DNA from: Parvularculaceae bacterium
Lineage (GTDB): Bacteria > Pseudomonadota > Alphaproteobacteria > Caulobacterales > Parvularculaceae
Length of the DNA: 64,000 nt
Direction of reading: 5' to 3'
Assembly (NCBI GenBank): GCA_028284065.1
Contig: JANQSJ010000014.1
Location: 1 to 64,000, forward strand
The position numbers were made by a program, and so were the translations under genes. Of this stretch, positions 2,246 to 44,650 are shown piece after piece. Within the stretch, counting starts at the first letter, position 1, and every line of letters starts with the position of its first letter. The notes beneath the pieces were generated by a model. It saw only the letters and a list, made by a program, of their open reading frames with translations, was not told the DNA's origin and searched no databases.

Positions 2246-5200
2246 ATGATTAGTTTTTTACGCTCTTCATTAAAGCTCGCGCCGCAGAAAAACCCGCCGC
2301 AGGGGGCGTCGCCGCTGGCGCTTCGGGCGCTGGAGCCGCGCATCCTGCTCGACGCCGCAGGGGCCGCGACCGCCGCCGAGGGCCTTGCTGACGAAGCCGC
2401 TTCGCAGCAAGCCGACGCGGCGCTCGACCTATCGGGAGCGCCGTCCAATTCGCCGGCGGCCGTCCCAGACATCGATCTCCTCGCCGAGGCGGGCGCGCCG
2501 CCCCATGGCGCGCGCGAAATCGTTTTCATTGATGCCGGGGTCGCGGACCCGGCCGCCCTCCTTGAAGGCGTCAGTCCCCATGCGGACGTTCATTTCCTGA
2601 ACGCGGACGAGGACGGCGTCACCCAGATCGCGGACATTCTGGCGCAGTACGAAGACATCGGCGCGGTCCATATCCTCGCCCATGGCGATCAAGGCCGCCT
2701 TATCCTCGGCGACGCCGTCCTCGACCTCGCCAGCATGACCGGCGAGCACGCGGATGAGCTCAGCGCCATAGGCGCCGCCATAGGGATTGACGGCGACATA
2801 CTTATCTATGGTTGCGACTTCGCCGGCGGCGAGGCGGGCCTTGAGGCGGCGATGCTCCTCAGCAGGCTGACGGGCGCCGACGTCGCCGCCTCCACAGACG
2901 ATACCGGCCATGCCGACCTTGGCGGCGACTGGGATCTTGAAGCGGAGATCGGCGCGATCGAAACGCTCGGGATTGCGGTGAGCGGGTGGAGCGGTCTCCT
3001 GGCGCCGACGAATATCATCGTCAATGGCGATTTCTCGTCGGGGACCGCCGGATGGACCGTTACCGGCGACGGCGGCGTCGGGAGCGGTATATTTATTTGG
3101 GGCACGGACGGCGGCGCCGGGACGCTTACCTATGATGCGCCGCTGACCGGCCTGCAAACAGGTCCGGCGGCGAGCGGCGCCGCGCAGATCCAGCTCGACG
3201 TCGCCTGGAACAATGGCCAGCCGGATCTCACCGGCACGCACACGCTCGACATTCAGATCGGCGGCGTCACCTACGCCCGACTGACGACCGGCGGCCAGAA
3301 CGGATCGACGGCGACAATCGATTACCTGAACGGCGCCGCCGGTTCGCCGTCGACGGCCGCGGTGAGCCCGGCCTTCGTTAGCAGTCCGGGGACCATCTAC
3401 ACGTCCGTCACGATTGATCTGCCGAGCACAGTCGCAGATACGGGAACGCTTCAGTTCGTCTCGTCGGCGGGCGGCTCGCGCGACGACATCGGCATCGACA
3501 ATGTTCAGGTCATCGTCGAGAGCAACACGCCGCCGACAGCCGCCGACGACGCCTACACAGTGCGGCCCGGCCAGGCGCTCACCATCGATCCCGTCGGCGA
3601 CAATGACGCGGACCCCGATCCCGATACGCTGACGATTACGCAGATTATCGACCCCGCGGACGTCGCCAATCCGATCACGCCCGTCGCCGGCGCGCCGATC
3701 ACGCTGACGTCCGGGACGCAGGTGACGCTGCGCGCCGACGGCGGGCTTGACGTCGTTACGCCCGCCGGCCTGTCGCCGAGCGACGCGTTCGATTATGTCG
3801 TTGAAGACGGCGCGAGCGGTTCGGCCCAGGCGACGGTGACGCTAAATGTCGACACTGATGGCGACGCCGTCATCGACGCCGCCGACATCGACGACGACAA
3901 TGACGGTATTCTTGATACGGAGGAGGGTTTCGTAGAGAGCGGCGACATCACGACCGCCACCTCTGACGGGGGCCTCGATATTTCCGGCGAAGCCTCCGCG
4001 CCGACCGGCGCCACCTTCAGCGCCGATGGAACCAAGTTCTATGTCATCAGCGCCTTCAACGACGACGCCGTCTTTCAATACGCACTGGCGACGCCTTTCG
4101 ACATAACCTCGGGCGTTACGTTCGAGACCTCCTTCGGGATCGCCGACGACAACCCGACGTCCGTAACGTTCAGCGCGGACGGATTGCGCATGTTCATCCT
4201 CGGCGCCGATAGCGACCAGATTGTTCAGTACCGTCTGGACACGAATTTCGACCTCAGCGGAACGGTCACGAATGAAGGCGCGCTGGTCATCGCCGGCGAC
4301 ACAAGCGCGCCCACCGGAATCCATTTCAGCCCCGACGGGACAAAGCTCTATATCTCTGAGAGCCAGGGCCCGATTCACGAGATCCTTGAATACGACGCCG
4401 CCGCGCCGTTCAATATTCTGCCGGCGACGGGCGGCGGCATAAGCCTGGTCAACAGGCTTGACGTCCACGCGACGCAAAACACGCCCCATGGCGTCAGCCT
4501 GTCGCCTGACGGCGCACGCCTCTACATCGCCGGCCTCAGCGACGACACGATAGATATTTTTGACCTCGCGACGCCCTTCGATATCTCAACTGCCTCGGCG
4601 ACGCCAAGCGCAACGATTGACCCCGGCTTTATTAATCCGTTCGATGTTTGGGTTCGTCCCGACGAGACTGGGTTCTACGCCGTTGACGCCAGTGGCCTAG
4701 AAATTGTTCAGTTTACGGTTAAATCCGGCGCCCGCGACACCGACGGCGACGGCGTTTTCGACCATCTAGACATCGATTCAGACAATGACGGGATCACCGA
4801 CAATGTCGAGGCGCAGGCGACAAACGCCTATGTGGCGCCGAGCGGAAATGACGCCGATGGCGACGGCCTCGACGCCGTCTATGAAGGCGCGGGTGACGAA
4901 GGCCTGACGGCCGTCGATACGGACAGCGACGGAACTGCGGACTATCTCGACGAAGATAGCGACAATGACGGCCGACTTGACATCGCCGAGCGCGGCGATA
5001 GCGGCCCAACGGCGAACCCGACATTCGAAGACGCCGACTTTGACGGCCTGGACGACGACTTCGAAGGCGCCGACGCCAATGATGGCTATGACGTCAATGA
5101 CGAAAATGTTTCGACCGCCTCGGGCGACGCCATTGGGACACTTGCCGAGTACAATCTGAGCGCATCGCCTCTGCTCGCAAGCGACTTTTCGAACTATTCG

Positions 5201-8200
5201 GCCGGCGCGACCGACCTCAGCTTCAGAAGCGCCGACATAGACGGTGACGGCGTTCGTGACGACATTGACATCGACGACGATAATGACGGTATCCGCGATA
5301 CGGATGAAGTGATCGCGGCGATAACCGAAGCCGAACTTGATGGATCGCTTGACGTCTCCGGCGACGCCGACTTTCCACAGGACCTCGCCTTCAGCAGCGA
5401 CGGATCGCGGCTTTACGTCCTTAATCTGACGACGGACACCATATTCCAGTATGAGCTGACGACGCCATTTGACATAGACGGCGGCGCAACGCTTCAAGGC
5501 TCTTTCGTCGTCACCAGCCAGGAACCGACTCCGAACGGCCTCACTCTTAGCGACGACGGAACGAAGCTATTCATTAGCGGCAACACCGGCCGCGTCAATC
5601 AATACTCCCTGACGACCGCGTTTGACGTCACGTCAGGCGTTTCCCATGACGGCGACTTTTCGCTGCCTGCCGGCGAGAACCGCCCGAATGGACTGGAGTT
5701 CAGCGAAGACGGCCTTAGCGTCTTTGTGATCGGCGAAGACAATGAAGTCGTGCACCAGTATAACCTTAGCGCGCCGTTCGACATAACCGCCGGCGTGACG
5801 CTCGTCCACACACTGAACATCTCCGCGCAAGACCTCGAAGCCGAAGGGATCGCTTTCAGCAATGGCGGAAGATTGATGCACATTGTCGGACGCGGCGCGG
5901 GCGCGGTCCACACATATGAATTGTCAACACCCTTCAATCTGACGACAGCCGCGTTCCGCTCGACGCGTTCAGTGATCGCCGATGCGACCAGCCCCCGCGG
6001 CGTCGCGTTTACGCCGGAGGGCGAAAGCTTCTTTGTCGTCGATGGCGCGACAGGGGTAGTCTTCGAGTACAATACCGATACGGACCGTGATGGGGTCGCA
6101 AACTATCTCGACATCGACAGCGACAATGACGGAATCACCGACAATGTGGAGGCGCAGGCGACGAATGCCTATGTCGCGCCGTCCGGCAACGACGCCGACG
6201 GCGACGGCCTCGACGACGTCTATGACGCCGACGACACGGATATCGATCCGGCCGCGTCCGCCGGCCTGACGCCGGTAAACACGGATAGCGACGCAACTGC
6301 CGACTATCTTGATACGGACAGCGATAATGACGGCCGACTTGACATCGCCGAACGCGGCGATGGCGGGCCGACCGCGAACCCGACCTTCGAGGACGCCGAC
6401 GGCGACGGCCTCGACGACGACTTCGAAGGCGCCGACGCCAATGATGGCTATGACGTCAATGACGAAAACGTCGCGACCGCGCCAGGCGCGACGGTGGCCA
6501 ACCTCTCCGAATACGCGCTTAGCGCCGATCCGTCGTTGACCGACGACTTTTCAAACATCGCAGCCAGATCAATCGACCTCTCCTTCCGCGACGCCGACGC
6601 CGATAATGATGGCGTGGCGGACGCCGACGACATCGATGATGATAATGATGGCGTTCGTGATACGGACGAAGGTGGTGATTACGGCTTCTCCGACGAGGGA
6701 GCGCGGGCGGTTTGGTGGCCAACGAATGGCGGCAACGGCGCGTCGGCCGTCGTGATCAACAGCGATGTAGTCGCTTCCGCTGAGGACTTTGTCGCCGGCC
6801 CAGGGATGACCGCCACGACGGGCACTGGCGATACGGCGCTGACGGGCGTCGACCAACCCGACTTCGCCGGCGCCCTCGCAGATGGCGACTATCTCCAGTA
6901 CGAGTTCACCACTGTGTTCGGCGGTGACTTCCTTGGCGTCGATATGCGCGGAGGCGGACAAAATGTGGGCCGTGACATCACAGTCGTCATTTCGAACGAC
7001 GGGTTCGCCACGTCGGAAATCCTGCTTCAAGACGCGAACCACATCAATGACGCTGTTAACCTGGGAAGCAACGCCCAGGGTCACGAATTCGACCAACCCT
7101 ATGCGCTCGATCCTAATACGACGTATTCCGTGCGGATTTATCACTATAACTCGACCATTGGGACGGATATCCGCGTCGACAACGTCAGCTTCCGGATTAA
7201 TCCGTTCGTCGACACAGACGCGGACGGCGTCGCCGACCGCCTCGACCTCGATTCTGACAATGACGGGATCGCCGACAATGTGGAGGCGCAGGCGACGAAC
7301 GCTTATGTCGCGCCGTCCGGCAATGACGCCGACGGCGACGGCCTCGACGACGTCTATGACGCCGACGACGCGGATATCGATCCGGCCGCGTCCGCCGGCC
7401 TGACGGCGATCGACACCGATGGCGATGCAATAGCAGATTATCTTGATACGGACAGTGATAATGACGGCCGACTTGACATCGCCGAGCGCGGCGATGGCGG
7501 TCCGACGGCGAACCCGACATTCGAAGACGCCGACGGCGACGGCCTCGACGACGACTTCGAAGGCGCCGACGCCAATGACGGCTTCGACCCCAATGACGAA
7601 AACATCGCGACCGCGCCAGGCGCGACGGTGGCCAACCTCTCCGAATACGCGCTTAGCGCCGATCCGTCCTTGGCCGACGATTTCTCAAACATCGCAGCCA
7701 GATCAATCGACCTCTCCTTCCGCGACGCCGACGCCGATAATGATGGCGTGGCGGACGCCGACGATATTGACGACGACAATGACGGAATTCAGGACGTTCT
7801 GGAACGGGGAGCGACAGTTCTTAGTACGCCCGAAGACGCGTCTTCGTCCGACCCAGAATTAGCTAATCTTCAGAGCACCCGCGACGGCACGACCGCGGGG
7901 CCGTCCTTCGCAATTGACAACGCCAATGACGACGGGCCGATTTCCGATGTCACGTACACCTATGCGACGCCACTCGATGGCGTAACGTCGGTCGTCATCT
8001 GGAACAATGGCGGGGACGTGTTCACCGATGGTCAGAGCATTGGCGTTATCGGCCAACTGACCTTACGCAATTCGCTTGGCGATGTCGTCTTCACTACGAC
8101 GAATGTCGCCATTCCGGAGGGCTCAGCCGGAGATCCCTTCACGCTAGACCTTCCGGGTACATATGACAACGTCGCATCCATGGAATGGCTGTCGATAGAC

Positions 8201-11200
8201 GGCCCAGCGGGCGGCCTCGAAGGGGTCGCGTGGCGCGAGGTGGCGTTAGCGAGTTTGCCGGCTCGCGATTCGGACAACGACGGCGTCTTTGACCATCTCG
8301 ACCTCGATTCGGACAATGATGGGATCACCGATAATGTGGAGGCGCAGGCGACGAACGCATATATTGCGCCGAGCGGAAATGACGCCGACGGCGACGGCCT
8401 CGACGACGTCTATGACGCGGACGACGGGGACGTCGATGCTGCGGCGTCTGTTGGCCTTGCGCCAGTCGACAGCGATGTCGACGGAATGGCCGACTATCTT
8501 GATACGGACAGCGACAATGACGGTCGGCTCGACATCGCTGAGCGCGGCGATGGCGGCCCGATGGCGAACCCGGCGTTCGAGGACGCCGACGGCGACGGCC
8601 TCGACGATGATTTCGAAGGCGCCGACGCCAATGACGGCTACGACGTCAATGACGAAAATGTCGCGACCGCGGCGGGGGCGACGGTGGCCAACCTCGTCGA
8701 ATACGCACTCGGCGCCGATCCGGCGCTCGCCGCCAGCCTGTCGAACTATGATCCGTTAAGCGACGGCGCGCCGACGATCGATCTCCTGTTCCGCGATGAC
8801 AATGTCGCGCCCGTTGACGGCGACGAAGCCGTTGCGACGGCCGAGGACACGGCCCTGAATGTTATCGACGGGTCGGCGGGCGATCTCCTCGCCAATGCGA
8901 CGGACGCTGACGGCGATGCGCCTTTCATCCTCGATTTCACCGTGGGCGGCGCGACCTACGCCGCCGGCGCGACGGCGACCCTCGCCGAAGGGACGCTCAC
9001 CATCAATGCGAACGGGTCGTATACGTTCATTCCCGCCGCCAACTTCAACGGCGCCGTTCCGCCGGTCGCCTACACAGTATCGGATGGAAACGGGGGAACC
9101 GACGCCTCAACGCTTACGATCGCCGTGACGGCCGCCGGCGATCCGCCCGCCATCAATCTCAGCGGGTCCGCCGATGTTGAAAATCTCACAAACTTCGCGC
9201 CGACGACCCTGGTCTTCACGACGCCGACGATCATCAATGCAGGGCAAACCGAAGCGGACGATGGCGTCGGCAATGGCGAAACGCTCATCTACGCAAATGC
9301 GGGCGTCATTGGCGGAACGCCGATCGACATCGTTGCGACAATCATCTCAAACACAACGAACACAGCCTTTCAAGCGGATGTCTCGAGTGGCGCCCTTGCC
9401 TATTCGGTGCGTTGGGACGGCGATGTCACTGTTCGGTTTGACGTCGTTGAAGCGGGCTCAATGACCCAGATTCAAGGCGATTTCGCGTTTCAGTCGAGCG
9501 ACCTGGATGGGGCGAGACGGGTTGAAAGCCTCATTTTCGACACCGACGACCTCGCCTTTTATCGCCTGAACGCGGATACCTCGATCACCGTTTCGGAGGC
9601 CGACGGCCGGACGACATTCCGGGGCGGGACGAATGGTCCCGCCACCAACCCAGGCACATCCCTGGAGTTCGGCCTGGACGACGTTTCCGGCTTCACCCTA
9701 ACGTTTAGGCAGGACACATCGCTAACAACGCCTGGTGGGCGGACGATTTTTCTCGATGGCGACTTTACGTCAATCTTAACCACTCCTGTCATGGCGCTGG
9801 GGAATGTCGACTATGCAACCAGCTTCACCGAGGGCGATGCGCCCGTGGCTGTCGCCGACTCCGACGCGGACGCGTTCGATGCGGATGACGACATCGTCTC
9901 GCTTGCGATTGTCGCCGGCGGCATCGCGGATGGCGCGGCGGAACAGCTGACGCTCGCCGGCGCGATCTTCGACCTGTCCGTTGACGGCGCGGCAAGCGGC
10001 GTCGCAATCGGCGGCGGCACGCTCGATATCTCCTATGTCGCCGCAACCGGCGCATTTGCGGTGACAAATGCGATGGGCGCATCCATCCCCATGCCCGACG
10101 CCGCCCTCGACGCGCTTATTCGCTCAATCGCCTACGAGAACGCGTCCGAGGACCCGACGCCGGGCGATCGCGCGTTCGTCTTTACCGCGACGGACGCGGA
10201 AGGCGCATCGTCCAACCCCGCCACGACTATCGTTTCGGTCACGCCCGTAAATGATGCGCCCGTCGACGGCGACGAAACGGCCTCGACGGCGGAAGACACG
10301 CCGCTGACCGTCGCCGACGGCGCGCCCGGCGATCTCCTCGCCAACGCATCGGATGTCGACGGCGGCCCGCTGGCGATTGTCGACTTTTCGGTCGGCGGGA
10401 CGACCTATGCTGCGGGCGTCACGGCGACGCTGCCTGAGGGCGACTTGACCGTCAACGCCAACGGCTCCTTTACATTTATTCCCGCTACGGATTTCGCCGG
10501 GACCGTTCCGCAGGTCTCCTACGTCGTCTCAGATGGCGCGGGCGGGCTCGATGTCTCCACCCTCGCGATATCCGTGACGTCGTCGAATGACGGCCCCATC
10601 GCGACGGACAACGCCTACGCGACCGAGGAGGACGTAAGCGTCGCCGGGAACGCCATCCTCGACGCGCCCGCCGACAGCGACGCCGACACAAGCGTTTTGA
10701 GCCTCGCGGCAGGATCGATCGGAACGTTCGCCACCGCCGAAGGCGGCGCGATCGCGCTCAACCCAGACGGCGCCTTCGTATACGCGCCGCCAGCGAATTT
10801 CATCGGGACCGACACGTTCGATTACACCGTCACCGACGGGGCGCTCACCGACGTCGGCCGCCTGACCTTCACCGTCAGTCCGGTGAACGACGCGCCCGTC
10901 GCTGTGGCGAACGTCTATGAAACCACCGAGGATACTGAAGTTCTTGGAAATCTCATCGGCGACGACACCGGCGCCGGCGCCGACTTCGACGTCGACCTCG
11001 ACGCGCTTCAGATCAACGCCGGGTCGATAGGCGCTTTTGTCACGACGGCGGGCGGCGCCATTTTCATCACCCCCGATGGCGCCTTCGCTTATGCGCCGCC
11101 GCCTGACTTCAATGGGACCGATACGTTCGATTACGTCATTACCGACGGCGCGCTGACGGCGAGCGCCACTGTGACGTTTTTGGTCAACGCCGTTAATGAC

Positions 11201-13225
11201 GGACCGGTCGCCACCGACAACGCTTATCAGACGGATGAAGACGTTGCGGTGTCAGGCGACGCAATTCTCGACCTCCCCGCGGACCGCGATATCGACACGC
11301 CGTCCCTCAGCCTCGCCGCCGACTCGATTGGGACTTTCGCAACGAGCGAGGGCGGCAGGATCACACTCGCCGCCGACGGCTCCTTCACCTATGCGCCGCC
11401 AGCGGATTTCGTTGGAACGGACACGTTCGACTATACGGTGACCGACGGCGCGCTCACGGACGTCGGCAAGCTGGCCTTTACGGTCGGCGCAGTGAATGAC
11501 CCGCCTGTGGCGATCGCCAATCTTTACGCCACGCTTGAGGATTCTGGGGTCGCCGGCAATCTCATCACGGATGACACCGGCGCCGGCGTCGACTTCGATG
11601 TCGATCTCGACGCGCTCCGTATTCCGCCGGAATCGGTCGGGACCTTCGCCACGCCGGCGGGCGGCGCGATCACGATCGCCCCGGACGGCGCGTTCACTTA
11701 CACGCCGTTGGCTAATTTCCACGGGGAAGATACGTTCGTCTACGTCATTACCGACGGCGATTTGTCCGCCTCGGCGGCCGTCTCATTCCAGATCAGCCCC
11801 TTGCGCGATGCGCCGACCGACGGCGACGAGGCGATCGCCATCGCGGAAGACACACCGGCGCGGGTCAACGCCGGGACGGATAGCGGCCTCCTCGCCAACG
11901 CCGCCGACGCTGACGGCGACGCGCTCTTCATAGTGGATTTTTCGGTAGGCGGAGGCACCTACGCGGCCGACGAAACCGCTTTCCTTCCACAGGGCGCGCT
12001 CACCATACGCGCAGACGGGTCTTACGAATTCGTTCCGGCTCCGGACTTCAATGGTCCCATTCCGCAGATCGCCTATACCGTTTCGGACGGCTTCGGCGGC
12101 GCCGATACGTCAACGCTCGACATCACGGTGACGCCAGCGAACGATGCGCCGCGCGCCGCAGCGGGGGGCGCCCTCGGCGACAGGGCGAACGCAGTAGACG
12201 ACCCGGTGTCCGCGCAGACGTCGGACGCATTCACAGACGTCGACGGGGACGATTTGACGTTCTCTGCGGATGGACTGCCGCCGGGCCTCGCCATTGACGC
12301 CGCGACCGGCGTCATATCAGGCGCGATCGCGCCGGAAGCCGCCTTGATCGCGGCCTATGAGGTTACCGTGACAGCGCGCGACGAGACTGGCGCCAGCGTC
12401 TCGCTGACCTTCGTCTGGCGGATCACCGACGCGGCGGCAGCAGACATTGAGACCATAATCCGGCTTGGCGGCGGTCCCGGCGGCGACGAGACGAATGCGA
12501 CGGACGCCGATAGTCCGTATATCGAGCTCCCAGAAACCCTTTGGGCGCAGGCGCGCGCCGCGGCCGGCATTGACGCGGACGGCGCGGTTATAGCGGCGGC
12601 AAATGCCGCGTCTCACCTGGAAGGGTTGACCGCGATCGACGCCGAGCCTTCGGTTCTCGCCGCGGTCAATGGCGCCGACCCGCTTGGCGGGCTTTCCCCG
12701 GAGCCGATTAGCGACGCGCGCGCGCATGCGCTTATCGCAGACGCGCAGGCGCGCTTTGGCGGCGGCGATGCGTCCATCGACTTGCTTCAGGTCCGCGGCT
12801 TCTCCTTAGCCGGGTCCGGCTCTGGCGCGTTCGCGATCGACAGCGTATCGCGAGGCGGCGTCGTCTATCTAAGGGCGTACGACGCCTATTCGTCTTCACA
12901 AAAAAGCGCCTACACGGATTTTAATGTCACCTTGGGCGATGGACGCGCGACGCCGCGGTGGATTTCGACATCGCCGGACGGGCTAGTTGTCATCGACCGC
13001 CCAGCGAACGTGGAAACGGTCGTCCTCAAGATTGTAGGTATACGGAACGGAGGCGGAACCGATGCGCGCCTGGTTGAAATCGACACGCTGACCGGAGAGA
13101 TCCTTCGCCGTGAGGCGGCGAACCGCGCCTATGGGCCGAGTTTCTCCGAAGCGGTCGAGCGCGCCGCGTCGGCCGGGGCCGCCCATGAAGAAAGCGTCAA
13201 CAAACTGCTAGACATTGAACGGTAG
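2246..13225 (+). CDS. Giant LEPR-XLL/DUF4347 calcium-binding surface adhesin
   Basis: A 3,659-residue modular protein, probably exported and involved in attachment or biofilm. It has no Sec signal peptide; instead the LEPR-XLL motif (LEPRILLDAA, residues 29-38) sits near the N-terminus. DUF4347 follows (~91-251, with H146 and C190), then a jelly-roll-like domain (~253-427). Acidic thrombospondin-3 type calcium repeats (DxDxDG) alternate with beta-propeller-like stretches (~585-830, ~1040-1275) and two other globular inserts. Cadherin-like NDAPV...EDT modules lie at ~2185-2300 and ~2670-3300, a putative Ig module at ~3310-3400, and a unique C-terminal region at ~3410-3659. I see no RTX nonapeptide. 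Export genes follow 76 bases downstream. ATG 2246 has GAGG six bases before it. Domain names are established families; the adhesin role and export route are inferred. Confidence 0.85.
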   Translation: MISFLRSSLKLAPQKNPPQGASPLALRALEPRILLDAAGAATAAEGLADEAASQQADAALDLSGAPSNSPAAVPDIDLLAEAGAPPHGAREIVFIDAGVADPAALLEGVSPHADVHFLNADEDGVTQIADILAQYEDIGAVHILAHGDQGRLILGDAVLDLASMTGEHADELSAIGAAIGIDGDILIYGCDFAGGEAGLEAAMLLSRLTGADVAASTDDTGHADLGGDWDLEAEIGAIETLGIAVSGWSGLLAPTNIIVNGDFSSGTAGWTVTGDGGVGSGIFIWGTDGGAGTLTYDAPLTGLQTGPAASGAAQIQLDVAWNNGQPDLTGTHTLDIQIGGVTYARLTTGGQNGSTATIDYLNGAAGSPSTAAVSPAFVSSPGTIYTSVTIDLPSTVADTGTLQFVSSAGGSRDDIGIDNVQVIVESNTPPTAADDAYTVRPGQALTIDPVGDNDADPDPDTLTITQIIDPADVANPITPVAGAPITLTSGTQVTLRADGGLDVVTPAGLSPSDAFDYVVEDGASGSAQATVTLNVDTDGDAVIDAADIDDDNDGILDTEEGFVESGDITTATSDGGLDISGEASAPTGATFSADGTKFYVISAFNDDAVFQYALATPFDITSGVTFETSFGIADDNPTSVTFSADGLRMFILGADSDQIVQYRLDTNFDLSGTVTNEGALVIAGDTSAPTGIHFSPDGTKLYISESQGPIHEILEYDAAAPFNILPATGGGISLVNRLDVHATQNTPHGVSLSPDGARLYIAGLSDDTIDIFDLATPFDISTASATPSATIDPGFINPFDVWVRPDETGFYAVDASGLEIVQFTVKSGARDTDGDGVFDHLDIDSDNDGITDNVEAQATNAYVAPSGNDADGDGLDAVYEGAGDEGLTAVDTDSDGTADYLDEDSDNDGRLDIAERGDSGPTANPTFEDADFDGLDDDFEGADANDGYDVNDENVSTASGDAIGTLAEYNLSASPLLASDFSNYSAGATDLSFRSADIDGDGVRDDIDIDDDNDGIRDTDEVIAAITEAELDGSLDVSGDADFPQDLAFSSDGSRLYVLNLTTDTIFQYELTTPFDIDGGATLQGSFVVTSQEPTPNGLTLSDDGTKLFISGNTGRVNQYSLTTAFDVTSGVSHDGDFSLPAGENRPNGLEFSEDGLSVFVIGEDNEVVHQYNLSAPFDITAGVTLVHTLNISAQDLEAEGIAFSNGGRLMHIVGRGAGAVHTYELSTPFNLTTAAFRSTRSVIADATSPRGVAFTPEGESFFVVDGATGVVFEYNTDTDRDGVANYLDIDSDNDGITDNVEAQATNAYVAPSGNDADGDGLDDVYDADDTDIDPAASAGLTPVNTDSDATADYLDTDSDNDGRLDIAERGDGGPTANPTFEDADGDGLDDDFEGADANDGYDVNDENVATAPGATVANLSEYALSADPSLTDDFSNIAARSIDLSFRDADADNDGVADADDIDDDNDGVRDTDEGGDYGFSDEGARAVWWPTNGGNGASAVVINSDVVASAEDFVAGPGMTATTGTGDTALTGVDQPDFAGALADGDYLQYEFTTVFGGDFLGVDMRGGGQNVGRDITVVISNDGFATSEILLQDANHINDAVNLGSNAQGHEFDQPYALDPNTTYSVRIYHYNSTIGTDIRVDNVSFRINPFVDTDADGVADRLDLDSDNDGIADNVEAQATNAYVAPSGNDADGDGLDDVYDADDADIDPAASAGLTAIDTDGDAIADYLDTDSDNDGRLDIAERGDGGPTANPTFEDADGDGLDDDFEGADANDGFDPNDENIATAPGATVANLSEYALSADPSLADDFSNIAARSIDLSFRDADADNDGVADADDIDDDNDGIQDVLERGATVLSTPEDASSSDPELANLQSTRDGTTAGPSFAIDNANDDGPISDVTYTYATPLDGVTSVVIWNNGGDVFTDGQSIGVIGQLTLRNSLGDVVFTTTNVAIPEGSAGDPFTLDLPGTYDNVASMEWLSIDGPAGGLEGVAWREVALASLPARDSDNDGVFDHLDLDSDNDGITDNVEAQATNAYIAPSGNDADGDGLDDVYDADDGDVDAAASVGLAPVDSDVDGMADYLDTDSDNDGRLDIAERGDGGPMANPAFEDADGDGLDDDFEGADANDGYDVNDENVATAAGATVANLVEYALGADPALAASLSNYDPLSDGAPTIDLLFRDDNVAPVDGDEAVATAEDTALNVIDGSAGDLLANATDADGDAPFILDFTVGGATYAAGATATLAEGTLTINANGSYTFIPAANFNGAVPPVAYTVSDGNGGTDASTLTIAVTAAGDPPAINLSGSADVENLTNFAPTTLVFTTPTIINAGQTEADDGVGNGETLIYANAGVIGGTPIDIVATIISNTTNTAFQADVSSGALAYSVRWDGDVTVRFDVVEAGSMTQIQGDFAFQSSDLDGARRVESLIFDTDDLAFYRLNADTSITVSEADGRTTFRGGTNGPATNPGTSLEFGLDDVSGFTLTFRQDTSLTTPGGRTIFLDGDFTSILTTPVMALGNVDYATSFTEGDAPVAVADSDADAFDADDDIVSLAIVAGGIADGAAEQLTLAGAIFDLSVDGAASGVAIGGGTLDISYVAATGAFAVTNAMGASIPMPDAALDALIRSIAYENASEDPTPGDRAFVFTATDAEGASSNPATTIVSVTPVNDAPVDGDETASTAEDTPLTVADGAPGDLLANASDVDGGPLAIVDFSVGGTTYAAGVTATLPEGDLTVNANGSFTFIPATDFAGTVPQVSYVVSDGAGGLDVSTLAISVTSSNDGPIATDNAYATEEDVSVAGNAILDAPADSDADTSVLSLAAGSIGTFATAEGGAIALNPDGAFVYAPPANFIGTDTFDYTVTDGALTDVGRLTFTVSPVNDAPVAVANVYETTEDTEVLGNLIGDDTGAGADFDVDLDALQINAGSIGAFVTTAGGAIFITPDGAFAYAPPPDFNGTDTFDYVITDGALTASATVTFLVNAVNDGPVATDNAYQTDEDVAVSGDAILDLPADRDIDTPSLSLAADSIGTFATSEGGRITLAADGSFTYAPPADFVGTDTFDYTVTDGALTDVGKLAFTVGAVNDPPVAIANLYATLEDSGVAGNLITDDTGAGVDFDVDLDALRIPPESVGTFATPAGGAITIAPDGAFTYTPLANFHGEDTFVYVITDGDLSASAAVSFQISPLRDAPTDGDEAIAIAEDTPARVNAGTDSGLLANAADADGDALFIVDFSVGGGTYAADETAFLPQGALTIRADGSYEFVPAPDFNGPIPQIAYTVSDGFGGADTSTLDITVTPANDAPRAAAGGALGDRANAVDDPVSAQTSDAFTDVDGDDLTFSADGLPPGLAIDAATGVISGAIAPEAALIAAYEVTVTARDETGASVSLTFVWRITDAAAADIETIIRLGGGPGGDETNATDADSPYIELPETLWAQARAAAGIDADGAVIAAANAASHLEGLTAIDAEPSVLAAVNGADPLGGLSPEPISDARAHALIADAQARFGGGDASIDLLQVRGFSLAGSGSGAFAIDSVSRGGVVYLRAYDAYSSSQKSAYTDFNVTLGDGRATPRWISTSPDGLVVIDRPANVETVVLKIVGIRNGGGTDARLVEIDTLTGEILRREAANRAYGPSFSEAVERAASAGAAHEESVNKLLDIER
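4769..8802 (+). repeat. Four near-identical TSP3 cassettes inside the adhesin gene
   Basis: Four ~500-560 bp copies occur at about 4769-5307, 6110-6670, 7244-7792 and 8300-8802. Each encodes SDNDGI.DNVEAQATNAY, then a run of DxDGD calcium loops, then SDNDGRLDIAERGD and DDDFEGADANDG. Copies 2 and 3 are almost identical in DNA over long stretches. Copy 1 is shorter in the middle and copy 4 lacks the final DNDG loop. Different globular modules lie between copies, so this is a cassette-and-spacer layout rather than a simple tandem array. Confidence 0.85.
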
Positions 13226-13301
13226 AATTTTCATTTCGTTCACCATATTTCAACCACTCATCATTATGTTTTATTACGGTTAACTATTTGGAGCTTCAAG
13301 A

Positions 13302-14846
13302 ATGAAGAAGCTGCTTCTTGTCATGGCGACTCCATTTCTGCTGACGGCATGCGTCGTCTCGCCTCGCCCGTTCACCGCCGAGGAGCTCGACGCCAAGGGC
13401 AGTGAGCGGATCAACGCTTTTCTGTCCGACCAGGAGGCGGTGACGAAGCCGATCACGCTCTATGAGGCGATGGCGCGGGCGTTGAAATACAATCTCGACT
13501 ACAAGGTGGAGCTGATGGACGCGGCGTTGAGGCGCCGTGAGCTGGACCTCGCCCATTTTGAGCTGCTGCCGGACCTCGTTGCAGGCGCGGGCTATGCGGG
13601 GCGCAATAACTTCAGCGGCGCAAGCTCCAGCCAGCTGCTTGGCGATCGCACGGTCGGGCCGCAAACGCTCGTCGCGTCGACGTCCGCGGAACGGCGCATC
13701 CTGACGGACGATTTGACCATCAGCTGGGACGTACTTGATTTTGGCCTCTCGTACGTTCGCGCCCGGCAGAAGAGCGACGAAGTTCTGATCGCCAATGAAC
13801 GGCGGCGAAAGGTCGCCAGCCGCATCATTGAAGACGTACGCACGGCGTACTGGCGCGCGGTCAGCGCCGAGCGCCTGATCGACAAGCTGGCGCCGCTCGA
13901 GGCGGAAATTGACGACGCGCTCGCCGCCTCCAGGCGCGCCTACCGCAGACGCAACGCCGCGCCCCTTACGGCGCTCACTTACCAACGCGAGCTTCTCGGC
14001 GTGCGCGAGGAGATCCAGCTTCTGCACCAGGAGCTCAGCGTCGCGAAGCAACAGCTCGCCGCGCTGATGAACGTCGATCCCGCGACGCCATTCGAGCTCG
14101 TCATGCCGAATCGCGACGATTCCTCCATCGACGTCGATGTCGACCCGGCGACGATGATCGAGATTGCGCTCATGCTGCGGCCGGAGCTGCGCGAGATATC
14201 CTACCGCCAGCGCATCAATGAGAAGGAAGCGACCGCCGCGCTCCTCGACCTCTTGCCGAGCCTGAGGGCGTATGGCGGCTTCAACCACGACAGCAATGAT
14301 TTCCTGTTCAACAGTTATTGGGCGGGATGGGGCGCGCGCGCCAGCTGGAACCTCGTCAACGTCTTTCGCTACCCAGTGCGCAAGAAGACAGTGGAGGCGC
14401 AGCAGGATCTCTTGGACCAGCGCGCGCTCGCCCTCACCATGGCCGTCGTGACGCAAGTTCATGTGAGCGCTACTCGTTTCGCCATCGTCAAACGCCGTCT
14501 CGACACCCAGCGAGGCGGCCACGACGTCCAGTCGAAAATTCTCCGCCAGATTGATTCAGGCTATAAGGCGGGGCGGATCAGCCGTCAGACATATATCCGT
14601 GAAAAGATGAACGGCATCGTCGCGGAGGCGAAATACGACATCGCCCTCGCCGAACTTCAGAACGCCTTCGCCAACATCCAGGCGTCCATGGGCGTCGACC
14701 CGATCAACGCCGAGATCGACGCGGAGGAGAACGTCGAAACGCTCGCCGCGCGGCTACAGGCGCACTGGGAACGGCGCGGCGACCGGACCGTCTATGGCGA
14801 TGCGACGGGAACGGCGAAGCCCGTCGCCGTAGCGGAGCTGAACTGA
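13302..14846 (+). CDS. TolC-family outer membrane lipoprotein
   Basis: A 514-residue outer-membrane efflux protein. The N-terminus is a lipoprotein signal with lipobox LLTAC, making Cys17 the predicted lipidated residue. Two TolC-type halves follow, with long helical stretches (for example LIDKLAPLEAEIDDALAASR) expected to form the periplasmic tunnel. It starts 76 bases after the adhesin stop, in an AT-rich gap, with GGAG eight bases before ATG. Its TGA overlaps the next ATG by one base, so it is co-translated with the HlyD-type adaptor. TolC proteins form the outer-membrane exit duct of type I secretion and efflux systems. Here the adjacent giant protein is the obvious substrate, which is an inference from context. 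A general efflux role is the alternative. Confidence 0.88.
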   Translation: MKKLLLVMATPFLLTACVVSPRPFTAEELDAKGSERINAFLSDQEAVTKPITLYEAMARALKYNLDYKVELMDAALRRRELDLAHFELLPDLVAGAGYAGRNNFSGASSSQLLGDRTVGPQTLVASTSAERRILTDDLTISWDVLDFGLSYVRARQKSDEVLIANERRRKVASRIIEDVRTAYWRAVSAERLIDKLAPLEAEIDDALAASRRAYRRRNAAPLTALTYQRELLGVREEIQLLHQELSVAKQQLAALMNVDPATPFELVMPNRDDSSIDVDVDPATMIEIALMLRPELREISYRQRINEKEATAALLDLLPSLRAYGGFNHDSNDFLFNSYWAGWGARASWNLVNVFRYPVRKKTVEAQQDLLDQRALALTMAVVTQVHVSATRFAIVKRRLDTQRGGHDVQSKILRQIDSGYKAGRISRQTYIREKMNGIVAEAKYDIALAELQNAFANIQASMGVDPINAEIDAEENVETLAARLQAHWERRGDRTVYGDATGTAKPVAVAELN

Positions 14847-15637
14847 TGCCGCGCGCGCGCCGCACGCTCGCCGCCACAGGTCTGACAGTCGTTGGACTCG
14901 CAGGCCTCGCCGCGCTGGCGCCCGGCGCAACGATGGCGCAAGACGCCGCGGCGCAAGACAGGACTGCGGCGGCCGACATTATTCGCGGCGTCATCAAGGC
15001 GCGGCGCGAAGCAGTCATCCAGTCGGACCTCAGCGCGCCGGTTGCGGAAGCGCCCAAACGCACCGGCGACGCTTTCAAGAAGGGCGACTTGTTGCTGCGC
15101 TTCGAGTGCGAAGCGCAATTGGCCGAGGCGGCCGCGGCCGCCGCCGCCTACCGCGCCGCCAGAGCCCGCCATGACAGCGACGTTGAAATGAAGGCCCATG
15201 ACGCGGCGGGGCGTTTCGACGTCAGCCTGTCGAAGGCGGATATGGAGGAGGCGGACGCCCGCGCCCGCGCCGCGCGCGCCCGCGCCAAACGCTGCGATAT
15301 CCTCGCGCCTTATGACGGCAAGGTGGCGGAGCTCTGGATCAATCCCCACGAAACGCCGCGCGTGGACCAGCCGCTCATCAAGATCGTCGGCGTGGAGGAG
15401 ATGGAGCTGCGCCTCATCGTGCCGTCGGCCTGGCTTGTCTGGCTGCAGCCGGGAGAGGCCTTCAACTTCGCGGTCGATGAGACAGGCGAAACCCTCGCCG
15501 CCACGGTGGACCGCATCGGCGCGGAGGTGGACGCCGTCAGCCGCACCGTCCCCATCATCGCGCGCGCCACAGCGCCCGCGGGCGCCATCCTTCCCGGCAT
15601 GAGCGGGTCGGCGACCTTCCGGCGGCCGGCGGGATAG
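14846..15637 (+). CDS. Periplasmic HlyD/RND-type adaptor protein
   Basis: A short (263-residue) membrane-fusion protein. The N-terminus looks like a cleavable signal peptide ending near ATMAQ. A split lipoyl-like domain can be seen (AVIQSDLSAPVAEAPKRTGD and later CDILAPYDGKVAELWINPHE) around a short Ala/Arg-rich hairpin, then a beta-barrel region ending in LPGMSGSATF. It overlaps the TolC stop by one base and is followed by the next adaptor after 4 bases. It most likely bridges the inner-membrane components and the TolC duct. The hairpin is much shorter than in HlyD itself, which suggests a compact contact with TolC or a dependence on the other two adaptor-like proteins encoded downstream. 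Confidence 0.82.
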   Translation: MPRARRTLAATGLTVVGLAGLAALAPGATMAQDAAAQDRTAAADIIRGVIKARREAVIQSDLSAPVAEAPKRTGDAFKKGDLLLRFECEAQLAEAAAAAAAYRAARARHDSDVEMKAHDAAGRFDVSLSKADMEEADARARAARARAKRCDILAPYDGKVAELWINPHETPRVDQPLIKIVGVEEMELRLIVPSAWLVWLQPGEAFNFAVDETGETLAATVDRIGAEVDAVSRTVPIIARATAPAGAILPGMSGSATFRRPAG

Positions 15638-15641
15638 ACCA

Positions 15642-17060
15642 ATGACGGTCGCCGCCAGACTGTCCGCATGCGCGTCGGGCGCCGCAAATGCGCCAGCCGC
15701 AAACGGCGCGCGCGGCGCGGCCGGCGGAACGGCCGAAAAATTAGCGTACGCCGCATCCATGCTGACGTTCGAAAGCAAGGTGCGCACACTGAACGATGAG
15801 CGGGAGCTTTTCGCCAGCCTCTGCAATGAGACCCGCGCCTTCCTGCCGTTCCGCCAGGCTTTTCTTCTGAAGCGCGGGACCGTTCGCGACGACATGGAGA
15901 TCATCGCCGCATCGAGCCTCGCCGTCATCGACCGCGACGCGCCGTTCGTGCGTTGGCTGGAGAAAATCGCAAAGCGAATGGGAGAGGACGCCGGCGCGGA
16001 CCGTCAGCAATTCTTCAGCCTGCCCGCCTATTGCGACGACGCGGACGAAGAACGCCTCACCTATCCGTTTCCGGAATTTCTCTGGACCCCGTTGAAGGAC
16101 GGCGATGCGGTGATCGGCGGCTTCATCGCCACGCGTGAAACGGTATGGCAGGAGGCGGACGCCGCGGCGGCCGACCGACTGGCGGCGCTATATGCGCATG
16201 CCTGGCGCTCCATAAAGGGCCGCGGCCGGATCGCCGGCCGGAGGCTCGTGACGCCCCCGCGCGCCATCGCCGGCGCGCTTCTCGCCGCTGCGATCTCTCT
16301 CTGCCCCATTTCGATCACTTCGCTCGCGCCGATGGAGATCGCGCCGAAAGACGCGTTTGTCGTCGCTGCGCCGTTCGACGGGGTTGTGGAGGACATCCTC
16401 GTCGACCAGGGAAAGGAGATAGCCGCGGGAACGCCGGTCATCGCCTTCGAAGACGTTCTTTATAAAAATGACTTCGAGATTGCGGATCGAAATGAAGCGG
16501 TGGCGAAGGCGCGGCTGCTCCGCGCGTCGCAAGGGGCAATCGGCGATCCAGAGGCGAAACGCGATCTCGCCGTCGCCAGCGCCGAGCACGCGCTTGCGGA
16601 AGCCGAACGCGCCTATGCGAAGGACCTCCTCGACCAGACCGTCATCGCCGCGCCCCATGGCGGCGTCGCCATTTACACCGACAAGCGCGACTGGGCCGGT
16701 CGCCCCGTCGCCGCCGGCGAGGCGATCCTGCAGATCGCCGACCCGGGCGAGACACGCATCTCAATCGACCTGCCGGTGAAGGAGAGCCTGGAGATTGACG
16801 CCGGCGCAAGGGTCAAGGTCTTCCTTGATTCCAGTCCGCTGCGGCCATTCGAGGCGACGCTCGTCGAGATCGGTTATTCCGCCCGCGCCGACAAGCGGGA
16901 CGTCCTCTCCTACCGTCTTTATGCGGAGTTGAGCGATCGCACGGCGGCGCCGCGGATCGGCGTTCAGGGAACCGCCCAGGTCTTCGGCGGCCGTGCGCCG
17001 CTCATTTACGTCGTCCTGCGCCGTCCCCTCGCGGCCCTTCGGCAGCTAACGGGCTGGTGA
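15642..17060 (+). CDS. Membrane HlyD-type adaptor with GAF-like N-terminal domain
   Basis: A 472-residue protein with three parts. Residues ~33-195 look like a GAF-type cytoplasmic sensor (ERELFASLCNETRAFLPFRQ, then PLKDGDAVIGGFIATRE). A single membrane segment follows at ~207-229. A periplasmic HlyD-type part begins with the lipoyl-like segment VVAAPFDGVVEDILVDQGKE, continues through a short helical hairpin (AVASAEHALAEAERAYAKDL) and ends in a beta-barrel. The predicted topology puts the N-terminal domain inside the cell. Genes with a GAF-like part fused to an adaptor are uncommon. The fold assignment of the N-terminus is by pattern only and less certain than the HlyD part. It lies four bases after the previous gene and three before the protease gene. 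Confidence 0.78.
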   Translation: MTVAARLSACASGAANAPAANGARGAAGGTAEKLAYAASMLTFESKVRTLNDERELFASLCNETRAFLPFRQAFLLKRGTVRDDMEIIAASSLAVIDRDAPFVRWLEKIAKRMGEDAGADRQQFFSLPAYCDDADEERLTYPFPEFLWTPLKDGDAVIGGFIATRETVWQEADAAAADRLAALYAHAWRSIKGRGRIAGRRLVTPPRAIAGALLAAAISLCPISITSLAPMEIAPKDAFVVAAPFDGVVEDILVDQGKEIAAGTPVIAFEDVLYKNDFEIADRNEAVAKARLLRASQGAIGDPEAKRDLAVASAEHALAEAERAYAKDLLDQTVIAAPHGGVAIYTDKRDWAGRPVAAGEAILQIADPGETRISIDLPVKESLEIDAGARVKVFLDSSPLRPFEATLVEIGYSARADKRDVLSYRLYAELSDRTAAPRIGVQGTAQVFGGRAPLIYVVLRRPLAALRQLTGW

Positions 17061-17063
17061 GCA

Positions 17064-19184
17064 ATGGCCGCGACGCGCCTCACGCCCGAATCGCGCCTGC
17101 CGGCATTGCGCGAGGACTTGCAATTGCTGGAGGGCGCGCGGCGGCCGGACGGATCGGCAGGCTGGCTCGTGTTCGACCCCGTCCGGCACCGATACTTCGA
17201 GATCGACCGGAAAAGTGAGCTGATGCTGCGACATTGGCGCGCGCACAGCGTCGGCGACCTGCTCGCGTCCGTCGGGCCGGACACGGAGCTGTCGCTCGAC
17301 GCCGTCGATGCGCTCCTGCGCTTCCTCTTCGCCAATTCCCTCACCGAGGCGCCGCCCGACGGCGACTTCAGGAACTACGCCGTCCAGGCGAATGCCGCAA
17401 AGCGCTCCCTCCTGAAATCGGCGCTCCACAATTATCTCTTTATACGGATTCCACTCGCGCGGCCCCACGCCTTCCTAAAGCGGACGCAACGACTGACCGC
17501 GCCCTTCTTCACCGCGCAATGGTGGGCGTTCATAGGCGTCGTCGCCGCCGCCGGCCTTTACCTCGCGTCGCGGCAGTGGGACCAGTTCGTCCATACATTT
17601 CTGTACTTCTTCAATCTTCAGGGGCTTGCGTTTTACTTTCTAGCGCTTGGCGCCGTGAAGATCGCTCACGAGCTTGGCCATGCCTACGCCGCGACCCGCT
17701 ATGGCTGCCGCGTCACAACCATGGGCGTCGCGTTCCTGGTCATGTTCCCCGTTCTCTATACGGATACGACCGACAGCTGGAAGCTCGCCTCGCGCCGCAA
17801 ACGCCTCGCGATCACGGGCGCCGGCGTCGCCGTTGAGCTTATGATCGCCGCCGTCGCGACTTTTCTTTGGGCGTTTCTGGATGACGGCCCGGCGCGGAGC
17901 GCGGCGTTCTTCCTCGCGACCGTCAGCTGGACCATGAGCCTCGCCGTCAATCTCAATCCGCTCATGCGTTTCGACGCCTATTACTTTCTGAGCGACGCCA
18001 TCGGCGTCCAGAACCTGCAGGCGCGTTCCTTCGCCCTCGGACGATGGGCGCTTCGGGAAGCGCTTTTCGGCTTCGGCGATCCGCCGCCGGAGGCGATGGG
18101 CGGGCGCCGGCGCGCCGGCCTCATCGCCTTCGCCTGGGCCGCCTGGGTTTACCGCTTTTTTCTCTTTGTCGGCATCGCGCTCCTCATCCACCATTTCTTC
18201 TTCAAACCGCTGGGCGCAGCGCTTCTTGTAGTTGAGCTAGGCTGGTTCATTGGCGCGCCAGTCATAAATGAGATGAATGAGTGGCTTGGGCGCGCAGACG
18301 CCATGCGCCTCAATCCACGCACGCTGCGCGCAGGCGCCTTCGCCGCAATTGCGCTGGCGCTGACGGCGTTACCCTGGCGCACGGACGTGCGCATTCCCGC
18401 CGTACTCGAAGCGTCTGGCCATATCAGCCTCTACGTGCACCGACCGGCCATCGTGGCCGCCCGCCACGCTGCGTCCGGCGACACGGTGTCGACAGGCGAC
18501 ATATTGTTCGAGCTGCGCTCGCCAGCGCTTGAGTTCGATATCGCGCAAACGCGCCGCCGCATCGGCGCCGTGCGCGCACGGCTAAGCCGCATCGCTGCGG
18601 ACGCCGGCGACCGCGGCCAGACAATCGTGCTCGGCCGCGAGCTTCAAAGCCTTCAGAGCCGCCTCGCCGGTCTCGGAAAGGAGCGCGCGCTCCTCACCGT
18701 CCGCGCCCCTTTCGACGGCGTCATCGTCGACATGAAGTCGACGCTGGCGCCCGGGCGCTGGGCGCATGACGGCTCGCCGCTCGCCGATATCGTCTCAACA
18801 GAGGGCGCGCGCATTCGCGGGCTCGTCCGCGCCGACGACGTTTCGCGCATAAGGCCCGGCGCGAGAGCCGTCTTCGTCCCCGATCTGATCGAACGTGCGA
18901 AAGTGCCGGGCGCGATCGCCGCCATCGACGGCGCGAACGCGCCTGTCGTCGCCATGCCGGCGCTGGCGTCTCGATATGGCGGTCCGGTTGCGGTCTCCGA
19001 GGTCGCGCAATCCCTGACGCCCTTGGGCGCATGGTACCCTGTGACGATGACGATAGACGGCGTGGCGGCGGCGCCGACCCAGACCGTTCGGGGTGAAATT
19101 CGAGCTCGAGGCGAGGCGGAAAGCGCCGCCGTGAAAATCTGGCGGCGGATCGTCCATGTACTGATCCGCGAAAGCGCGCTCTAA
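17064..19184 (+). CDS. Site-2 type M50 metalloprotease with PqqD-like and HlyD-like parts
   Basis: A 706-residue polytopic protein. Residues ~25-105 resemble the PqqD/RRE winged helix that binds leader peptides (GWLVFDPVRHRYFEIDRKSE). The membrane core has about eight segments. The zinc motif HELGH (202-206) lies in or beside one, and the second M50 motif NPLMRFD (N298, D304) lies in a later one, so the expected metal ligands are present. From ~460 on there is a HlyD-like part: a lipoyl segment, a helical hairpin (SRIAADAGDRGQTIVLGREL) and RAPFDGVIVDMKSTLAPG, then a barrel. This is the last gene of the operon. M50 enzymes cleave membrane-embedded or membrane-near peptides; cleavage of the adhesin N-terminus is a proposal, not shown. 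Similar multi-part M50/HlyD proteins occur in peptide export loci. Confidence 0.85.
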   Translation: MAATRLTPESRLPALREDLQLLEGARRPDGSAGWLVFDPVRHRYFEIDRKSELMLRHWRAHSVGDLLASVGPDTELSLDAVDALLRFLFANSLTEAPPDGDFRNYAVQANAAKRSLLKSALHNYLFIRIPLARPHAFLKRTQRLTAPFFTAQWWAFIGVVAAAGLYLASRQWDQFVHTFLYFFNLQGLAFYFLALGAVKIAHELGHAYAATRYGCRVTTMGVAFLVMFPVLYTDTTDSWKLASRRKRLAITGAGVAVELMIAAVATFLWAFLDDGPARSAAFFLATVSWTMSLAVNLNPLMRFDAYYFLSDAIGVQNLQARSFALGRWALREALFGFGDPPPEAMGGRRRAGLIAFAWAAWVYRFFLFVGIALLIHHFFFKPLGAALLVVELGWFIGAPVINEMNEWLGRADAMRLNPRTLRAGAFAAIALALTALPWRTDVRIPAVLEASGHISLYVHRPAIVAARHAASGDTVSTGDILFELRSPALEFDIAQTRRRIGAVRARLSRIAADAGDRGQTIVLGRELQSLQSRLAGLGKERALLTVRAPFDGVIVDMKSTLAPGRWAHDGSPLADIVSTEGARIRGLVRADDVSRIRPGARAVFVPDLIERAKVPGAIAAIDGANAPVVAMPALASRYGGPVAVSEVAQSLTPLGAWYPVTMTIDGVAAAPTQTVRGEIRARGEAESAAVKIWRRIVHVLIRESAL

Positions 19185-43872: not shown

Positions 43873-44650
43873 ACTCGCTGCAAACAACATCAGCGTTCAT
43901 ATCGATGGCGCGACCATCGTCGCTGACGCGAGCCTGACGGTGGCCACTAGCGAGGCGGTCGCCCTCCTCGGACCGAATGGCGCCGGCAAGACCAGCCTCA
44001 TGCGCGCGCTGATCGGCCAGATCGCGCCCGACGCCGGCCATGCGCGGCTCGACGACGAAGAGACGCGCAGCATGCGTCCTGAAGCCCTCGCCCGACGGAT
44101 CGCCTACCTTCCGCAGCGCCGGCCAATGGCCTGGCCGATGCGCGCCCGCGACGTCGTCGCCCTTGGACGGTTCGCCTACGGCGCATCGCCCTCCCGCCTC
44201 GCGCCCGAAGACGCGGCGGCGGTCGACGACGCGCTAGGCGCCTGCGGGCTCGGCGAGTTGGCGGCGCGCCGGATGGACACGCTCTCCGGCGGCGAAGCAG
44301 CGCGGGTGCATGTCGCCCGCGCGCTCGCGAGCGGCGCCGACTTCCTCCTCGCGGACGAGCCGGTCGCCTCGCTCGACCCGCTCCGGCAGCACGAGGTAAT
44401 GGCGCTCATTCGGGACTTTGCCGACAGGGGCGGCGGCGCGCTCGCGGTGCTTCACGACGCCGCGCTCGCCGCGCGCTACGCCGATCGGATCGTCCTGATG
44501 CGCGACGGCCGGATCATTGCGGACGGCCCGCCGCGCGAAGCCCTGACGGCCGCTCGGTTCGAGGAAGCTTACGGCCTGCGGGCCGAGATCACGTTCACGC
44601 CGGGCGGCAATGGCGCAGCGATACGCGTTCTTGATGTCGCAGGCGGCTGA
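43865..44650 (+). CDS. btuD: Cobalamin ABC transporter ATPase BtuD
   Basis: A 261-residue ABC ATPase. Walker A is GPNGAGKTS (36-44), the Q-loop lies in YLPQRRPM, the signature is LSGGEAARVHVARAL, Walker B is FLLADEPVASLD, and the switch His is in VLHDAALAARYADR. It powers cobalamin import through BtuC. It is the last gene of the btuBFCD operon and a terminator hairpin begins at the base after its stop codon. Confidence 0.94.
   Translation: MAELAANNISVHIDGATIVADASLTVATSEAVALLGPNGAGKTSLMRALIGQIAPDAGHARLDDEETRSMRPEALARRIAYLPQRRPMAWPMRARDVVALGRFAYGASPSRLAPEDAAAVDDALGACGLGELAARRMDTLSGGEAARVHVARALASGADFLLADEPVASLDPLRQHEVMALIRDFADRGGGALAVLHDAALAARYADRIVLMRDGRIIADGPPREALTAARFEEAYGLRAEITFTPGGNGAAIRVLDVAGG

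Follow-up and report, generated by a model that had tools for sequence, protein, structure and literature searches.

A widespread gene set without an ABC exporter, its candidate substrate among the LEPR-XLL giant proteins, and a possible SecA-driven route for their export

How does a surface protein of 3,659 residues leave a Gram-negative cell when the genes packed behind it encode an outer membrane duct, three adaptor parts and an intramembrane protease, and none encodes an ABC exporter? This question is raised by a locus of a Parvularculaceae bacterium (Alphaproteobacteria), which we analyzed as a window of 64,000 nucleotides of contig JANQSJ010000014.1 (assembly GCA_028284065.1, forward strand). 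The locus holds five plus-strand genes: one for a giant LEPR-XLL/DUF4347 repeat protein and four for a TolC-family protein, a small HlyD-type adaptor, a GAF-like/HlyD adaptor and an M50 protease fused to an adaptor. Comparison across genomes shows that this ABC-free unit is real and widespread and that it has a clear candidate substrate. Tag-guided export of the giant driven by SecA, with cleavage of its leader by the M50 protein, is the best explanation we can offer for this unit, and we hold it with about even confidence.

The giant (2246-13225) is a putative surface adhesin and the putative substrate of the set. Its N-terminus carries the leader motif LEPRILLD, of a kind called D-type below (residues 29-36, codons at 2330-2353; NF012209, 22.3 bits against a cut-off of 17), followed by a DUF4347 domain (residues 92-242, 2519-2971; E 2.7e-48) and by tandem-95 and cadherin-like repeats found by profile search. 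Near its end lies a domain common to the giants of these sets (residues 3551-3646, 12896-13183), where no Pfam model matched. We recognized this domain with a home-made profile built from 25 other open reading frames, the window being excluded (E 1.2e-7, residues 3551-3616; 1.7e-17, residues 3551-3646, after one more round). Downstream come the TolC-family outer membrane protein (13302-14846; OEP, PF02321, E 5.7e-33), the small periplasmic adaptor with a signal-peptide-like N-terminus (14846-15637; HlyD_3, 2.9e-15), the protein that joins a GAF-like domain, a membrane helix and an adaptor (15642-17060), and the M50 protein (17064-19184). HlyD_3 matches all three adaptors, and the best model for the small one is RND_mfp (1.6e-25, slightly below its cut-off). 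A first-pass annotation of this DNA had described a giant followed by four tightly packed genes, and the reading frames bear this out: 76 bases separate the giant from the TolC gene, which overlaps the HlyD gene by 1 base, and the next two gaps measure 4 and 3 bases. It had also called the TolC protein a lipoprotein; the family stands on the OEP match, and a lipobox-like LTAC at the N-terminus, read by eye, makes the lipid anchor a candidate feature. Within the giant, the TSP3-like pattern DxDxD(G/N)xxD occurs 27 times, which suggests calcium binding.

The same annotation had reported neither an ABC ATPase nor RTX repeats, and this too holds. No ABC or SecA gene lies inside the set; the nearest ABC ATPase-like open reading frame (43865-44650), about 24.7 kb downstream, is the only one found in the 64 kb, the rest of the genome not having been searched for ABC_membrane proteins. 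Profile searches of the giant gave no RTX family match, and a single isolated GGxGxD was seen. Two hallmarks of type I secretion, an HlyD-type adaptor and a TolC-type duct, are thus present in the set, and two, the ABC exporter and the RTX repeats (usual but not universal), were not found.

The grouping of these genes is not due to chance, because it recurs in other genomes. A scan of genome contigs for the M50 protein gave 232 relatives; the loci of the best 80 were retained, and the locus counts out of 80 refer to these. They span alpha-, beta- and gammaproteobacteria, Nitrospirota and one Campylobacterota metagenome-assembled genome, and 15 belong to Pelagibacteraceae (SAR11). Profiles found the GAF-HlyD adaptor in 73 of the 80, the HlyD adaptor in 68 and the TolC protein in 42, and a recognizable giant (LEPR motif, DUF4347 or the common C-terminal domain) in 56, the C-terminal domain itself in 38. 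Six of the seven GAF-HlyD misses fall within 1 kb of a locus end, many other misses likewise lie at contig or locus ends, and many gammaproteobacterial and SAR11 loci end within the giant. Upstream stretches of four genomes complete the set, with TolC before the giant in a SAR11 genome (G303) and TolC-HlyD before it in two Marinomonas and one Marinobacterium (G308, G309, G310). Gene order differs among lineages. The first-pass grouping of these genes with the LEPR giant in one system is supported by their conservation as a unit. The C-terminal domain profile also matches internal repeats, a SAR11 TolC protein and SAR11 proteins of 466 residues, so part of this domain is a common Ig-like fold. 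That SAR11 TolC protein, a member of its set (L162:4447-6951), has 834 residues, matches the profile at residues 527-618 and carries a long charged repeat tail. In Azospirillum loci (L044, L048, L051, L055 and others) a long repetitive upstream gene with a Q/G/N-rich end matches neither the motif, DUF4347 nor the C-terminal domain, its start lying beyond the locus.

Which feature of the giant is tied to the M50 protein? We compared 241 alphaproteobacterial genomes, the class of the window as judged from named relatives, with 276 genomes of Gammaproteobacteria, the class of Marinomonas. The M50 profile matched 12 of the former and 41 of the latter, figures that may be low since these searches scored four candidates per genome. 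DUF4347 was found in 22 alphaproteobacterial genomes (16 at E up to 1e-20) and 35 gammaproteobacterial ones, and both features in 9 and 27, respectively. Among alphaproteobacterial DUF4347 genomes the LEPR motif was present in 9 of 9 with the M50 protein and 0 of 7 without it; among the gammaproteobacterial ones it was present in 24 of the 25 readable genomes with M50, plus G427 after a renewed search, and in 1 of 7 without. For both classes together the motif occurs in 34 of 35 DUF4347 genomes with M50 versus 1 of 14 without (Fisher p 7e-10, a value that ignores relatedness). DUF4347 was considered as the paired feature and rejected: the DUF4347 N-termini of the seven M50-negative alphaproteobacteria lack the motif, and four gammaproteobacterial DUF4347 proteins (G352, G432, G468, G590) appear, by eye, to have ordinary signal peptides. 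Judged by sequence, the M50 link is therefore to the N-terminal LEPR motif and not to DUF4347. LEPR proteins occurring mostly apart from these genes, an outcome that would have spoken against the first-pass proposal, were largely not seen in this survey, which is centered on DUF4347 proteins and counts LEPR proteins through them.

Several choices define these counts. Set aside beforehand were six M50-negative alphaproteobacteria whose DUF4347 matches are weak (E 1e-6 to 6e-4, three of them over the cut-off), two genomes whose DUF4347 is cut by the contig (G494, G556), one G150 frame (L183) and the second G083 copy (L173), both with misread frames, and further copies in G140 (one), G267, G328 and G563 (the second of each). 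Motifs in G505 and G549 were read by eye and later matched by a wider pattern. G427 was counted as M50-positive with its M50 N-terminus at a contig edge. NF012209, at 24 positions, proved too short to serve as a genome-wide marker: it matched 6 of the 241 genomes, of which two have M50 (G000, the window genome, and G100), leaving 10 of the 12 M50 genomes unmatched; the remaining four matches were weak, in frames of 32 to 631 residues.

Between 6 and 95 residues separate the leader motif from the called start, and what appears by eye to be a basic stretch often precedes the motif. Peak hydropathy over 12 residues is 1.2-1.95 in 35 of 41 LEPR leaders (five are lower, one is 2.6), compared with 1.8-3.1 in 29 of 32 TolC proteins of the surveyed loci. 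LEPR N-termini are thus mostly less hydrophobic than those of the TolC proteins, and the leader looks like a poor ordinary export signal.

The pairing of motif and protease extends to subtypes. A tree of 106 M50 proteins (FastTree, midpoint root) splits into groups of 84 and 22 rows with local support of 100, and the window protein belongs to the larger, clade 1. Clade 1 goes with leaders of the form LEPRxhhD(A/G)A in 40 of 41 motifs, the sole exception being a second giant of Marinobacterium ramblicola that is encoded 6.4 kb past the clade 1 M50 gene, on a contig that also carries a clade 2 set. In clade 2 the leader reads LEPRxLL(S/A)(A/G), usually with D next. Counted by genome, the motif type is D in 17 of 17 with clade 1, and it is S or A in every one of the 16 clade 2 genomes whose motif could be read, the clade being assigned by tree or, for several, by profile score; G373 was assigned to clade 1 on the summed scores of its two M50 pieces. 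Five genomes (G309, G311, G313, G319, G588) hold both clades, so the split does not simply follow species. This argues against mere species history and does not prove binding. The first-pass proposal that the M50 protein recognizes the LEPR N-terminus gains from this pattern, since the motif type changes with the M50 clade, which is what direct recognition would predict.

The clades differ in a second respect that bears on energy. M50 is followed, in most clade 2 sets, by a gene for a SecA of about 650-730 residues, that of G309 matching SecA_DEAD (2.1e-70), SecA_PP_bind and P-loop_SecA, and an HlyD gene comes next after SecA in 11 of 18 clade 2 loci with SecA. Among 80 genomes, a second SecA_DEAD protein was found in 19 of 26 with clade 2, in 0 of 33 with clade 1 only and in 0 of 21 controls without M50; a weak partial match in G317 (1.3e-7) was left out. 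The second SecA adjoins M50 in 17 of the 19 (in G391 it is on another contig and in G594 about 16 kb off), and the G021 copy has diverged (3.7e-10). The window genome has one SecA_DEAD match and no secondary copy. Three genomes (G312, G325, G432) show no SecA at all, so some assemblies are incomplete. The first-pass annotation, which allowed for an ABC protein encoded elsewhere as the energy source, had overlooked this sister form; because that form carries its own SecA ATPase, SecA is by analogy the likely energy source. SecA profile matches in two clade 1 loci (L092, L096) were rejected as DEAD-box helicases by eye. In Marinobacterium ramblicola (L168:3368-14076), an FhaC/ShlB-type transporter and a 2,868-residue protein that looks haemagglutinin-like by eye lie just before the clade 2 GAF-M50-SecA set.

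The M50 protein itself joins a PqqD-like part, a protease and an adaptor. The window protein matches Peptidase_M50 with 35.4 bits against a cut-off of 27.2 and has the hallmark of site-2-type members, an HExxH motif and a distal Asp in membrane helices. The zinc site HELGH (residues 202-206, 17667-17681) and its acidic partner are strictly kept: H202, E203, H206 and D304 are invariant in 106 of 106 aligned sequences. Proteolysis is therefore probably under selection, and the giant would be the protein cleaved. In a structural model (mean predicted local distance difference test score, pLDDT, 86.5), three strands and three helices occupy residues 20-90 and are followed by membrane helices and, last, by an adaptor. 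The adaptor part (residues 436-689, 18369-19130) has a MacA/EmrA/MexA-like fold (Z up to 15.9 for MacA and relatives, 219 residues aligned, root mean square deviation 4.1), which together with the HlyD_3 match confirms the HlyD-like part named in the first-pass annotation. Its PqqD-like part fared less evenly. The predicted PqqD/RRE-like domain (about residues 9-95, 17088-17348) has no direct Pfam PqqD match in the window protein and one weak match (0.074) among 36 clade 1 members, and a search of solved structures with the N-terminal profile gave no PqqD among the matches listed. Its clade 2 counterparts match PF05402 in 17 of 21 cases at E up to 0.1 (best 2.8e-8), and the N-terminal profiles of the two clades align with 96.2% probability (E 2.6e-9). 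That link and the model fold speak for the assignment. The GAF-like label is similarly mixed: HlyD_3 establishes the adaptor, and Pfam GAF matches 6 of 46 members of the alignment and not the window protein. Its model (mean pLDDT 91) has an alpha/beta domain, a helix and then an adaptor. Fold-search lists were filled by adaptor parts and say nothing on the PqqD, M50 or GAF parts.

Taken together, the conserved unit, the lack of an ABC exporter in it, the leader-clade pairing, the conserved zinc site and the additional SecA found in clade 2 form a comparative basis from which we infer how the set may work as one export and processing unit for a giant surface protein. The cytoplasmic PqqD-like domain of the M50 protein would bind the N-terminal leader with its LEPRxLLDAA. 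SecA would then drive the chain across the inner membrane: in clade 1 the ordinary SecA of the cell, and in the majority of clade 2 a second copy dedicated to the task. From there, the three adaptor parts (HlyD, GAF-HlyD and M50-HlyD) and the TolC lipoprotein would together make up a duct reaching the surface. The leader would be cut near the LL-D/S bond by the M50 zinc site, and the GAF domain may time the process. More tentatively, and at somewhat below even confidence, this could be a separate Gram-negative export pathway in which leader reading by the PqqD-like domain, SecA, the three-adaptor TolC duct and M50 trimming act within the same complex, with two co-evolved leader/protease types, one of them used by SAR11.

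The same parts can be read as a control on retention and release, with export left to Sec or another pump: the LEPR end would hold the giant in TolC, the GAF adaptor would sense a signal, and M50 would free the giant, much as LapG and LapD act on LapA. A GAF-like sensor does adjoin an intramembrane protease here, the giants share a conserved C-terminal domain, and the N-terminal motif would be the last part out if export began at the C-terminus. However, a TolC protein and adaptors belong to the set, joined by a SecA in most of clade 2; both facts point to transport, and we consider retention unlikely.

It appears distinctly improbable that the set is a type I-like system relying on a shared ABC exporter from another place in the genome. 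Type I parts can be encoded apart, and between 6 and 13 ABC_membrane proteins occur in each of four Marinomonas and Marinobacterium genomes that carry the set, which favors such sharing. In ten SAR11 genomes with the set, by contrast, three have no ABC_membrane protein, six have one and one has two (E up to 1e-8; these genomes are incomplete). Five of the eight were classified (L124, L125 and L134 left out): three are best matched by MsbA and two by PglK-like models, all under curated cut-offs, and none is best matched as type I. Around the set, an ABC-domain profile matched in 5 of the 80 clade 1 loci (L053, L069, L076, L092, L096), always at least 5.4 kb from M50; pattern matches in L047 and L103 turned out to be DEAD-box helicases and one in L059 an IstB-like transposition ATPase by eye. 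Of an ABC transporter fixed elsewhere with the set, which would have told against the first-pass proposal, no clear type I case was found among the five classified SAR11 proteins.

For the SecA-bearing module discussed below, the M50 membrane part has been suggested to be an inner membrane pore worked by SecA (PMC4452313), and M50 and SecA do lie side by side in clade 2 sets. The known role of M50 proteins is proteolysis, their catalytic residues are invariant in the alignment, and SecYEG is generally present in bacteria, all of which make a pore role very unlikely. Least probable is that an RND pump of the cell energizes the adaptors and TolC: one is present in 9 of the 10 SAR11 genomes, the window genome has 7 RND genes and the small adaptor fits RND_mfp best, but no RND gene was seen among the neighbors read, in sets not searched specifically for RND, and we know of no RND pump that exports unfolded giant proteins.

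Those RND pumps, which leave some room for that energy source, belong with a number of observations that weigh against SecA-driven, tag-guided export. A giant was not recognized in 24 of the 80 loci, including 11 of Azospirillum. Genome G388 has the M50 protein and a DUF4347 protein without the LEPR motif, and G537 (L206) is a clear exception of the opposite kind, with LEKRIVFDAAA before DUF4347 and no M50 protein found. The paired clades may share a history without contact. A second SecA was not seen in 7 of the 26 clade 2 genomes, and clade 1 genomes have one SecA only, so SecA use there is an analogy. We know of no mature N-terminus of such a giant. Finally, a Vibrio LEPR-XLL giant is reported to carry C-terminal RTX domains (PMC10868602), so the motif may serve other routes too.

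The machinery has been met before. Kamneva, Poudel and Ward (2015) described, for five phyla, secondary SecA_DEAD proteins encoded next to HlyD, M50 and GAF genes, found no ABC transporter, suggested SecA as the ATPase and M50 as the pore, and called the role completely unknown (PMC4452313). We found no substrate named in their account, and its main text does not contain the terms LEPR and giant. Their module and the window set share the M50-HlyD, GAF-HlyD and HlyD proteins, sometimes an OEP protein, and the absence of an ABC transporter, whereas the clade 1 of the window lacks the second SecA and has TolC and a LEPR giant in its set. Clade 2 is this module or close kin, and the window form, being without SecA, is a sister variant.

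Other systems offer partial likenesses. Type I secretion of giant adhesins of the LapA/BapA kind, as generally described, also uses TolC, an HlyD-type adaptor and a giant repetitive surface protein; unlike it, the window set has no ABC exporter or RTX array and has three adaptor types and an intramembrane protease. Proteases of ribosomally synthesized and posttranslationally modified peptides, namely those of daptide (NF041824) and the YydH/LiaK epipeptide (NF058609), match the M50 core (E 7.4e-41 and 3.2e-6), but the window protein falls under their curated cut-offs (140.5 of 300 and 27 of 225 bits), is fused to an adaptor and has a giant protein as its likely substrate. Gram-positive SecA2/SecY2 export of serine-rich adhesins likewise pairs a dedicated SecA with an unusual N-terminal leader for giant adhesins, whereas here there are two membranes, TolC and adaptors, and a SecA copy in clade 2 only. 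The PEP-CTERM/exosortase and GlyGly-CTERM/rhombosortase systems, as far as their sources describe them (PMC1569441, PMC3237569), similarly pair a sorting tag and a membrane protein by co-occurrence, but the LEPR tag lies at the N-terminus and the protease carries a fused export adaptor. New here are the likely substrates (the LEPR giants), the tag-protease pairing by clade, the SecA-less form and its presence in SAR11. No earlier report of these points, or of any link between LEPR-XLL and M50 or SecA, was found in the literature searched, in which coverage of subscription journals is thin. From the sources at hand, the 2015 module was machinery without a known role and LEPR-XLL a name without a function, and the pairing would explain both. 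If it is correct, many Gram-negative bacteria would bring giant adhesins to their surface under the guidance of an N-terminal tag and with no ABC exporter, and the substrates of the module would become predictable from that tag. SAR11, among the most abundant bacteria of the ocean, would be included.

Some minor features of the surroundings complete the description. A histidine-kinase-like gene (638 residues, by eye) overlaps the end of the M50 gene in one locus (L075:12106-14022), and genes of similar length occupy this place in two more (L094, L106). In the window, an IS1595/ISXO2-type transposase (999-1973) lies between the contig start and the giant, where G+C content falls to 0.53 within the first 2 kb, and the set is followed downstream by ordinary genes for an esterase, a dehydrogenase and malate synthase.

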